Shown: positions 6,243 to 60,981 of the stretch, one piece after another
Position numbering within the stretch: position 1 is the first letter of the stretch
Layout: each line of letters opens with the position of its first letter
Assembly: GCF_000425705.1 (NCBI RefSeq)
Contig: NZ_AUDY01000008.1
Location: 248,001-312,000, forward strand
Direction of reading: 5' to 3'
Length of the DNA: 64,000 nt
DNA from: Halobacillus kuroshimensis DSM 18393
Lineage (GTDB): Bacteria > Bacillota > Bacilli > Bacillales > Halobacillaceae
Position numbers and translations under genes: made by a program
Notes under the pieces: generated by a model
Databases searched by the model: none
The model's input: only the letters and a program-made list of their open reading frames with translations
Told to the model about the DNA's origin: nothing

Positions 6243-6363
6243 TGGCCCGGCTGCGGGATATCGGTCTTTTTTCGGTTATATCAGCCGAAACGGAGCAGAT
6301 ATCGGTCTTTTTGTGGATATATCGGCCAAATCCTCAGCATATCAGCCAAATCACCGATATATC
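6243..6363. repeat. Array of 20-nt ATATC-ended units (array 1)
   Basis: ATATC occurs at 6258, 6278, 6299, 6319, 6339 and 6359, with steps of 20, 21, 20, 20 and 20 bases. The units resemble each other, e.g. AGCCAAATCACCGATATATC (6344-6363) and GGTCTTTTTGTGGATATATC (6304-6323). A second array of the same family lies at 59302-59401. There are no unique spacers, so it is not a CRISPR array. It lies between the toxin locus and the 3' end of the YeeE gene. Function unknown. Confidence 0.8.
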
Positions 6364-6389
6364 GATCTTCACCTCCGACGCGGTCATAT

Positions 6390-19489: not shown

Positions 19490-19522
19490 AGATGCATAGC
19501 AAGAAGAGTAATCGGTACAAAG

Positions 19523-19602
19523 CCTACAAGGGGAGCCTAGCGGCTGAGAGTGAACCTCGTTCAGACCCTTCGAACCTGTCAGTTAGTACTGGCGCAGGGA
19601 TG
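19523..19602 (+). promoter_or_regulatory. TPP riboswitch (THI element)
   Basis: The conserved thiamine pyrophosphate aptamer parts are all present in order: GGGGAGCC, GGCTGAGAG, GACCCTTCGAACCTG and GGCGCAGGGA. The arrangement matches the THI-box. It precedes thiT and is followed by a transcription terminator at 19620-19676, so thiamine pyrophosphate is expected to cause premature termination. Confidence 0.93.
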
Positions 19603-19619
19603 GCGGCTTTTTTGATGGT

Positions 19620-58695: not shown

Positions 58696-58742
58696 GAATC
58701 AATGCATAGAAGGATAGAATGGGAGAGAAGGGAGTTGTTACC

Positions 58743-59204
58743 ATGAATGAAGAACAGGTATTTCAACAAATTGCACTCGTTAGAAAAGCGACATTGAAAA
58801 TGCTGGATGGAATTACGGAGGAACAGGCAGACCTCCAGCCGAAAGGATTTGCGAACAATATCCGGTGGAATCTTGGTCATATTGTTGCTGCTCAAAATGG
58901 GATGGTGGCTAAGTTTGCCGGTACACCGGTCGAAACACCTCCGCGCTTTTTCCAATTATTCGCTCCAGGAACGAAGCCGGCGGATTGGGAAGGTAACGTC
59001 CCCAGCCTTGATGAATTGAAAAAACACCTGGAAGAGCAGCCGGCACTCCTGCAGGAAGCTCTCACGGGCAAACTTGATGACGAAGCAGCAGAAGAGTTTC
59101 TATCCATGAAAACCGTTGGTGAAATTCTGAATTTCACGCTGTATCACGAAGGGGTACATACGGGAACAATAAAAGCGATCAAAGCACAGACCGATCAAAA
59201 GTAA
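58743..59204 (+). CDS. DinB family protein
   Basis: A 153-residue four-helix protein of the DinB/YfiT-like superfamily. The three histidine ligands of the metal site lie in RWNLGHI and YHEGVHTG. Related enzymes are thiol-dependent transferases, some of them using bacillithiol. GGGAGTTG lies upstream of ATG 58743. It follows the alcohol dehydrogenase by 47 bases and may share its transcript; a terminator follows. Confidence 0.85.
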   Translation: MNEEQVFQQIALVRKATLKMLDGITEEQADLQPKGFANNIRWNLGHIVAAQNGMVAKFAGTPVETPPRFFQLFAPGTKPADWEGNVPSLDELKKHLEEQPALLQEALTGKLDDEAAEEFLSMKTVGEILNFTLYHEGVHTGTIKAIKAQTDQK

Positions 59205-59237: not shown

Positions 59238-59301
59238 GCATAGGATGAGAGGTAGAAGTATGGATGATAACGTATTCGAATAATTAGCGGAAAAGGATGT
59301 C

Positions 59302-59401
59302 AATTTTTTTCCGGATATATCAATTATTTTTGCGATATATCGACTAAATCTGTAATATATCGATTTTTTTCTGATTATATCAGTCAAATCTGGGATATAT
59401 C
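59302..59401. repeat. Array of 20-nt ATATC-ended units (array 2)
   Basis: Five units of exactly 20 bases, each ending in ATATC (at 59317, 59337, 59357, 59377 and 59397). Units alternate between T-rich (GATTTTTTTCTGATTATATC) and AGTCAAATCTGGGATATATC types. The same two types occur in array 1 at 6243-6363. It lies between the DinB terminator and the DUF2254 gene. No unique spacers. Function unknown. Confidence 0.85.
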
Positions 59402-59514
59402 GATAAATCGCGTCACCCACCATAAAGAATTATAAGAAATCAGGTTAGCAGCTACCGTTCAAGGGAAGGAATTAGAAGAATTCCAATACTTAAGAACAGA
59501 ATGGTGTGCCGCGT

Positions 59515-60939
59515 ATGAGTTTCTTCTACTATATAAAAAAGTACTTCAAAATGAGCCGGCGTCAACGCAAGAGTGAGCTGAAATCCACGATCTGGTTTAT
59601 GCCGTTCTGGTATATTCTCGGGGCTGTCGGATTATCGGCGTTCACCTTTTACCTCGATTATATCGTGGACGTCAGCTTGTACCTGCCGGCGCCCATCGGT
59701 TTCAGCGGACAGACGCTGCAGGTGCTGCTGAGTGCGCTCGTCGGAGGCGTTCTTACTTTGAGCGCGTTTACAATCAACTCGCTGCTTGTTGCCTTAACTA
59801 CGTTCAGCGGGCAGTTTTCATCCAAAATGCTCGTCAACTTTGTCAGTGACCGGGCCACTCAACATGTGCTCGGCATTTTCAACGGAAGCTTCATTTATGT
59901 GCTGTTAAACTTCCTGTATGTGACGCATGAGGAAGAGGAGTACATCGCCGCAACGCCGGTTCTGTCAATTCTGACGGCGATTATTGCCGCTGTCACCTTC
60001 ATCTATTTTATCAACCATACGACGACATGGATGCAGGTGCACAATATCAGCTACAATATGAACGCCAAGTCCCAGTCTGTTCAGACCGCTTTGGAGAAGG
60101 AGCTGGCTCCTTTTCATCTCAACAAGGAAATCGAACCGACTTCACTTCCTGCTGATGACGAGGGGAAGGTGCTGAAATCACATCAGTCCGGTTACCTTCA
60201 GGTGGCAGATTTTGCAAAGCTCGTCAAGACGGCCTCACGGGAGGATGCTCTCCTGAGGTTTGATGTAAGGATCGGTGAGTTTGTTGTGGAGGGGACCCCG
60301 CTTCTCACTTATTGGGAAAAGGGCTCCAAGATTCATCCGGAGCGTTATTTTAAGTCGATTGAAATTGGTGTAAAGCAGACAGAAATTCAGGACCTCGAAT
60401 ACGGGCTGATCAAGCTTGCAGAGGTAGCCATCAAAGCGCTCGGTCATAACGACCCGCTGACGGTGACGAATACCATCCATCAGATTACGGATCTCTTGAA
60501 GCGCATCGGCCAGTCCACCAATTTCTCTCCCTACCTTTTTGACCAGGAACAGCAGCTGCGGGTGATTTTGAATCAGAAGGATTTCCGTTATTATCTTCAT
60601 AAAGGATTCGCGTCGATCCGGGAATACGCCAACCAAAATTCAACGATTATGACGGAACTGCTGACGATGATTTCCCTGCTCAGCAAAACGATGGACGAGG
60701 ACGTTCACGAGGATCTGTGGGAATTCGCGCGTCAGACGATTCTTGGCTTCGATAATTACAGTCTCTATGAAAATGACTGCCTGTACATTATTGAACAGCT
60801 TTCCGAGCTTTCCAAGAATACAGGTCATCAGGAGGATTACCTGTTTCTACTCGAATATATGCTGCAGCGTGTCAGTTCAAAAAGTGCAGCAACGGTACCT
60901 CAGAAAGCATCCGGAGAGTATGAGCAGGAGCTTTCTTAA
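59515..60939 (+). CDS. DUF2254 membrane protein
   Basis: A 474-residue membrane protein of the DUF2254 family. Four transmembrane helices lie within the first 180 residues, with the LSALVGGVLTLSAFTINSLLVALTTFSGQFS pattern characteristic of the family, followed by a large soluble C-terminal part (YLQVADFAKLVKTASRED, an SH3-like segment, then helices). Function unknown. ATG 59515 is chosen, but no good ribosome binding site precedes it, so translation is probably weak or controlled in another way. The periodic ATATC array lies 114 bases upstream of the start. Confidence 0.85.
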   Translation: MSFFYYIKKYFKMSRRQRKSELKSTIWFMPFWYILGAVGLSAFTFYLDYIVDVSLYLPAPIGFSGQTLQVLLSALVGGVLTLSAFTINSLLVALTTFSGQFSSKMLVNFVSDRATQHVLGIFNGSFIYVLLNFLYVTHEEEEYIAATPVLSILTAIIAAVTFIYFINHTTTWMQVHNISYNMNAKSQSVQTALEKELAPFHLNKEIEPTSLPADDEGKVLKSHQSGYLQVADFAKLVKTASREDALLRFDVRIGEFVVEGTPLLTYWEKGSKIHPERYFKSIEIGVKQTEIQDLEYGLIKLAEVAIKALGHNDPLTVTNTIHQITDLLKRIGQSTNFSPYLFDQEQQLRVILNQKDFRYYLHKGFASIREYANQNSTIMTELLTMISLLSKTMDEDVHEDLWEFARQTILGFDNYSLYENDCLYIIEQLSELSKNTGHQEDYLFLLEYMLQRVSSKSAATVPQKASGEYEQELS

Positions 60940-60981
60940 CACGAAAAAGGCTTATCCGATTTTGGATAAGCCTTTTTCGTG
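60940..60981 (+). terminator. Intrinsic terminator of the DUF2254 gene
   Basis: Eighteen-base perfect arms from CACGAAAAAGG (60940-60957) to CCTTTTTCGTG (60964-60981), directly after the stop codon. Confidence 0.9.

Follow-up and report, generated by a model that had tools for sequence, protein, structure and literature searches.

In REPIN-RAYT (TnpA-REP) systems, short repeats lie beside a partner gene and are also dispersed extragenically, and the types of repeat and protein co-vary (PMC3116915, PMC8266576). The system described here is similar in that a chromosomal nuclease-type gene has its own short repeats adjoining it (46 of 58 loci), that the same repeats are dispersed extragenically (13 arrays in the genome studied here, with two other cores likewise dispersed) and that the kind of repeat varies with the kind of protein. 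The differences lie in the enzyme and in the repeats. REPIN-RAYT enzymes are Y1 HUH transposases, whereas the partner found here carries a NERD (nuclease-related, PD-(D/E)XK-like) domain and a winged helix; Pfam searches with four partner proteins returned NERD and not a Y1 transposase, and the E, D and E-x-K residues are conserved. REPIN-RAYT repeats are palindromes that fold as single strands or hairpins, whereas the repeats here are direct, double-stranded units of about 20 bp. Since both the enzyme and the type of repeat differ, we have not filed this system under REPIN-RAYT.

CRISPR and CRISPR-like interspersed arrays (PMC10910872) likewise combine repeats and variable spacers with a neighbouring nuclease gene. 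In contrast to them, the arrays here have units of 20/21 bp in all, spacers of about 8 bp, a short dispersed layout and no sign of RNA structure. Identification as a CRISPR array, with near-identical repeats of CRISPR length and spacers of similar length, was rejected, the conserved part of the unit being about 12 bp and the spacer about 8 bp. PMC10910872 contains the term NERD once, as an abbreviation in a figure legend on putative CRISPR auxiliary genes, and in PMC12802215 a single NERD gene is named as a neighbour. Our literature search, whose coverage excluded most subscription journals, found no paper joining NERD proteins with tandem arrays; within the literature covered, the gene-array system appears to be new. 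We speculate that NERD-linked 20-bp arrays may be mistaken for CRISPR arrays by repeat finders.

Plasmid iterons and ParR-type centromeres also consist of several direct repeats of about 20 bp that are read by a DNA-binding protein. The arrays described here differ from these in being chromosomal and dispersed and in having a nuclease-winged-helix partner, and none was found on plasmids with the queries used, one record that looks mislabelled aside (see below). The bcr repeats of the Bacillus cereus group are short interspersed chromosomal repeats in Bacillaceae. We know of no 20-bp tandem design or NERD link for them, and we set them apart by description, not by sequence.

The array family and its units

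The window (the whole stretch of DNA analysed, 64 kb) contains two arrays of one family. The features needed here are given in window positions:

59297-59408, forward strand: array 2, the feature under study; six units, with core words at 59297, 59317, 59337, 59357, 59377 and 59397 and steps of exactly 20
6258-6370, forward strand: array 1, of the same family as array 2; six units, with core words at 6258, 6278, 6299, 6319, 6339 and 6359
58719-59204, forward strand: DinB-superfamily gene, the upstream neighbour of array 2
59515-60940, forward strand: DUF2254 gene (PF10011, 5.4e-99), the downstream neighbour of array 2

The core word of array 2 is ATGTC at 59297 and ATATC at the other five starts, and array 1 has steps of 20, 21, 20, 20 and 20, with a single 21-bp step. 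The five perfect 20-base steps that the earlier note reported for array 2 were confirmed, the six units spanning 59297-59408, and the two 20-mer unit types it quoted for arrays 1 and 2 are correct; its count of 11 units over both arrays should read 12 (6 + 6).

Within the window, a loose pattern gave 13 matches against 7.73 expected, a number that was reached by 7 of 100 shuffles and is not significant. Unlike this window-only test, the genome-wide test was decisive and shows the array family to be genuine. An exact two-unit pattern matched 16 times on the forward and 15 times on the reverse strand of this genome, and its backward reading matched on neither strand; a three-unit pattern with at most 3 mismatches matched 33 and 27 times, against 1 and 0 for its control. 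Over the 3.85 Mb of this Halobacillus genome we count 13 arrays, which occupy 12 sites; the array on contig C10 is a weak one. Thus the proposal in the earlier note that arrays 1 and 2 are related members of a dispersed element family, and not a chance microsatellite, is upheld; the finding it had named as counting against this, an absence of further arrays in this genome, is the opposite of what was observed.

A three-unit pattern was found in at least 114 stretches in named genomes, mostly of Bacillaceae, and the genera among the matches listed include Halobacillus, Robertmurraya, Metabacillus, Neobacillus, Cytobacillus, Rossellomorea and Alkalihalobacillus. Fourteen of the 114 listed stretches are non-Bacillaceae and look like chance or simple repeats. 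Non-Bacillaceae loci were therefore excluded, 11 from an early gene-pair count (n=81) and 14 from the end-pairing, column-covariation, flank and later gene-pair analyses. Across the order, 33/299 genomes match with one mismatch allowed, against 1/299 for the reversed control pattern. Within the genus, ATATC arrays occur in 10/22 genomes (at most 2 mismatches; control 0), and in a tree of 19 DUF2254 proteins, 8 of whose 16 inner branches are unresolved, the array-bearing genomes fall into three groups.

In each unit ATATC is followed by two purines, one pyrimidine, a base that varies and three A/T positions; the spacer then usually closes with purine-A-T. The letters following ATATC come in genus-specific dialects. 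Among 100 arrays with four or more units, a small number of which overlap or derive from other taxa, 45 have exactly six. This usual number is greatly exceeded by three arrays of Alkalihalobacillus sp. BA299 (L077, L111 and L143), with 18, 17 and 30 units. Terminal inverted repeats of a MITE-like kind were considered and rejected: in 93 arrays, pairing between the two ends was no stronger than between mispaired ends; inverted ends were seen in single cases (the first array of L041; L197). Unit columns co-vary only with near neighbours. At columns 10-11 either AA or TT is accepted, an exchange that fits the reading of double-stranded DNA shape.

A role as RNA, whether as terminator, regulatory RNA or guide, has in its favour the AUAU palindromes, which fold slightly and do so on both strands. 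But the mean folding z of -0.99 and -0.96 on the two strands (43 six-unit arrays) lies near that of shuffles, Rfam gave no match to the arrays of the window or of the 16 loci searched, covariation is confined to neighbouring columns and the orientation of the arrays to genes varies. We regard an RNA element as most improbable. Elsewhere in the stretches searched, Rfam matched riboswitches and a tRNA only; a TPP riboswitch lies at window positions 19519-19617 (RF00059, 59.4 bits).

The partner protein and the arrays beside its gene

Clustering of array-adjacent genes identified one protein family at five loci in four genera. The partner is a protein of about 320 amino acids with a NERD domain, a zinc ribbon and a C-terminal winged helix; relative to other NERD (PF08378) proteins, the zinc ribbon and winged helix are added and cognate arrays are linked. 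Four of the proteins match PF08378 at 69.8-77.2 bits against a cut-off of 22.1. Nuclease-type residues are near-invariant (E93 in 57/57 proteins, D80 in 56/57, E48 in 54/57 and K95 in 54/57). In a structure model with a mean pLDDT of 85.6, residues of about 40-190 resemble PD-(D/E)XK nucleases and residues 228-319 resemble winged-helix DNA-binding domains; a sequence search of solved structures gave nothing convincing. One copy was found in this genome:

G000:C2:409388-410329, reverse strand: the only partner gene copy found in this genome (G000); it lies beyond the window and is flanked by arrays on both sides

A profile, A1, was built from the five array-adjacent proteins. Across the order it matches 231/299 genomes, frequently more than once, with up to about 7 candidates scored per genome; in the genus it matches 19/22. 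A score of at least 344 bits was obtained in 10/10 genus genomes with ATATC arrays and in two of the 12 without them, a concordance that is not an independent test because A1 was built from array-adjacent proteins. In those two, G017 (where the gene is broken by a stop) and G006, arrays with other cores adjoin the gene.

A fixed detector found an array of units of about 20/21 bp on at least one side of the gene in 46 of 58 partner loci and none in 12. Among the 46 array-bearing loci the array lay at the 3' side in 27 and at the 5' side in 24, with 5 having both. Control flanks gave 0/56 segments; a second control gave 26/594, a value that is too high because its loci had been chosen for holding arrays. 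All ten further usable Halobacillus copies have a 3' array (10/10), these being twelve copies minus one with N runs and one repeat of L312. Where the array is of the ATATC type, it lies 3' of the gene in nine genomes (G000, G014, G007, G016, G002, G013, G018, G175 and G043) and 5' of it in four (G021, G303, G164 and G073), and its strand is opposite to the coding strand of the gene in 13/13 comparable genomes.

Paralogs lie beside arrays of other words, including TTCGGTCTAA, TTTTCCGGCC, GATTGGGCC, GCGCGCGTTC, GGCGCGACT, GCGAGCGCTCAA, ATCGATCAAA, GTCCGAAT and more, and a genome can hold several paralogs with different cores. Two of the other cores were also found to be dispersed. The core GGCGCGACTCG is dispersed in 5/22 genus genomes (control 0), among them G011 and G008, where it also adjoins the gene. 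A 21-bp core, TTATCRGT, is dispersed in 6/22, with 8 to 50 overlapping matches in each (control 0); the latter core, too, adjoins a partner gene in G011 and G008. Some dialects occur in genomes where no cognate gene was found among the gene copies inspected, namely TTATCRGT in G002, G007, G013 and G016 and ATATC in G011 and G008. We read these gene-less dispersed dialects as relics of earlier specificities. The element that the earlier note described is thus real as a family, but its scope was drawn too narrowly, for what is found is a gene-plus-array system with many different cores.

Based upon these observations, we consider it likely that a chromosomal system of two parts, a NERD nuclease-like protein matched with cognate arrays, has the array as one of its dispersed target sites. 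The first part would be the NERD nuclease-like, zinc-ribbon and winged-helix protein of about 320 amino acids, and the second the tandem array, often of six units of about 20/21 bp, which its winged helix would read. One array would adjoin the gene, 3' or 5', and others would be scattered across intergenic gaps. Twenty bases correspond to two helical turns, so proteins bound to successive 20-bp units would align on one helix face. We predict with good confidence that the protein binds the units in this way, two turns per unit, and it would then assemble over the array.

Switching of the winged-helix end together with its array

The locus orthologous to this genome's gene carries different arrays in different species. 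The type is AATT in G000, RGTC in G014, AGYATTT in G013, GGCT/AATT in G007, G002 and G016, and the 21-bp TTATCRGT in G011 and G008. Thirty-six protein pairs were compared; N-terminal identity was at least 77% in 16 of them, and the other 20 (50-66%) say little. In the four same-array pairs of these 16, identity in the C-terminal part (zinc ribbon and winged helix) was within -3 to +2 points of that in the N-terminal part, whereas in the twelve different-array pairs it was 20 to 32 points lower. For G013 and G008 the N-terminal identity was 81 and the C-terminal identity 49, against 98 for a background protein. The pairs are not independent and reflect at least three switches.

The DNA around the locus follows the same pattern. 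Between G000 and G014, identity is 64% in the last 160 bp of the gene and 66% in the array, against 91-98% in the flanks on either side. For three further pairs, identity is already reduced to 72-74% farther upstream in the gene (-600 to -300), drops to 43-59% in the gene end and array and recovers to 84-96% at 150-500 bp past the stop; over these pairs together, identity at that distance is 84-98%. Same-array pairs at this locus show no drop, with 89-92% in the winged-helix part and 83-94% in the array. Over the 46 array-bearing loci, array similarity correlates with C-terminal identity when N-terminal identity is given (partial r 0.32, p 0.0005), the reverse partial being 0.17 (p 0.0025). 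From these genomic comparisons we conclude that, at one orthologous locus, the winged-helix end of the gene and the adjacent array have switched as one block.

Switches of specificity are also what an arms race would produce, and the system could be one of defence or conflict, its NERD nuclease attacking the DNA of invaders or rival elements and its arrays marking, tethering or titrating that nuclease. The presence of multiple paralogs with different cores in a genome, the rapid switching of reading end plus array and the occurrence of NERD domains in defence proteins would all suit this. The matches to PglW, MkoA and MADS6 are weak, however, being restricted to the NERD region and far below the family cut-offs. 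The array words were absent from viral contigs (one pattern searched), two array queries had no match in plasmids, one had none in phages, and at 1e-10 the partner protein was found in neither phages nor plasmids. Another array query gave a single plasmid match, to NZ_CP100662.1 (pZL222, labelled Pseudomonas fluorescens; L197), where a six-unit array has an inverted repeat of about 14 bp at its ends; in our judgement this record may be mislabelled, as its gene names and accession style resemble B. cereus-group DNA. We therefore find a defence role unlikely.

Placement and turnover of the arrays

Gene pairs holding an array were convergent in 26 of 65 cases, codirectional in 36 and divergent in 3. 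Among 177 pairs that lack an array and have a gap of 150-700 bp, the corresponding numbers were 27, 112 and 38. The arrays are thus enriched in convergent gaps (p 8.6e-5) and depleted in divergent ones (p 0.0016); under other ORF rules the counts for array-holding pairs were 33, 45 and 3 of 81. Their orientation relative to neighbouring genes is variable. These results bear on the gene 3' of array 2, which had been named correctly as DUF2254. A special tie between it and the array finds no support, as arrays are depleted in divergent (promoter) gaps, orientation to neighbours varies and, among the 11 orthologous DUF2254 loci displayed, an array is present only in this genome and its sister G014. 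We do not think that the DUF2254 gene is part of the system; it appears to be a mere neighbour.

Comparisons at fixed sites show that an array may persist, lose units, disappear or give way to another at the same position. At the site of array 1, an array in the same orientation is present in G007, G016, G011 and G013, with flanks 78-81% identical and spacers much changed; G008 and G002 have an array there as well, and one core remains in G014. The dialect at this site differs in G013, whereas its sister G008 retains the common one. Array 2 has six units in this genome and three in G014, the flanks being nearly identical, and the array at C2:160.7 kb of this genome is missing in G014. At L039, L040 and L044 the arrays are conserved about as well as their flanks. 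Over 188 pairs of orthologous units, conservation was 0.965 in the core against 0.768 in the spacers, although the former value is partly built in because the array rules require the core.

The excess of arrays between convergent genes and their rarity between divergent ones, together with their persistence at the same sites across species despite changed spacers, could point to an element of chromosome architecture or a transcription boundary. A protein would coat the array as a roadblock or topology site, above all between convergent genes, and the nuclease domain would be secondary or regulated. Against this, half or more of the genus clades are without ATATC arrays (12 of 22 genomes), the gaps at gene ends are where any insertion would be least harmful, and the nuclease-type residues are nearly invariant. 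We consider this explanation doubtful, yet to be kept in view.

The preference for gene-end gaps, with the insertion/absence difference between sister species, would equally be expected of passive mobile repeats of unrelated origin, the NERD genes merely settling in the same gaps. That reading is disfavoured and we hold it to be improbable, because the 3' end of the gene and the adjacent array switch jointly, the cores are paralog-specific and adjacency is far above that in the controls.

A two-part system of protein and target arrays remains the reading that we prefer. It is possible, and we suggest it tentatively, that the nuclease takes part in the turnover or spread of the arrays, which would make the system resemble a REPIN-RAYT pair in its behaviour. 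Shared spacers among the arrays of one genome, which would indicate copying, are not seen as a rule, and this is the main obstacle to a simple copy-paste process. The arrays of L221 (G011) and L042 (G000), which belong to two species and stand at different sites, share one unit with its spacer in 15/15 letters, a hint that arrays may undergo exchange with one another.

Taken together, genomic evidence establishes that the gene and arrays are adjacent, that cores are paralog-specific, that three of them are dispersed and that gene end and array switch jointly. We lean towards the view that these are the traits of a new chromosomal gene-repeat system, made up of NERD nucleases with modular DNA-reading ends, each with dispersed arrays of its own targets of about 20 bp, that diversifies by exchanging a cassette of reading domain plus target. 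If so, it would be a nuclease-based counterpart of REPIN-RAYT and would offer a natural series of protein-DNA specificity pairs. Dozens of natural pairs place a winged-helix end beside its presumed DNA target, so that a recognition code would become readable and testable. The system would also be a second, independent origin of a genome-resident system like REPIN-RAYT, and the question of why such systems persist would thereby become testable. For the Bacillaceae, the intergenic arrays of about 20 bp would gain both an explanation and a partner protein.
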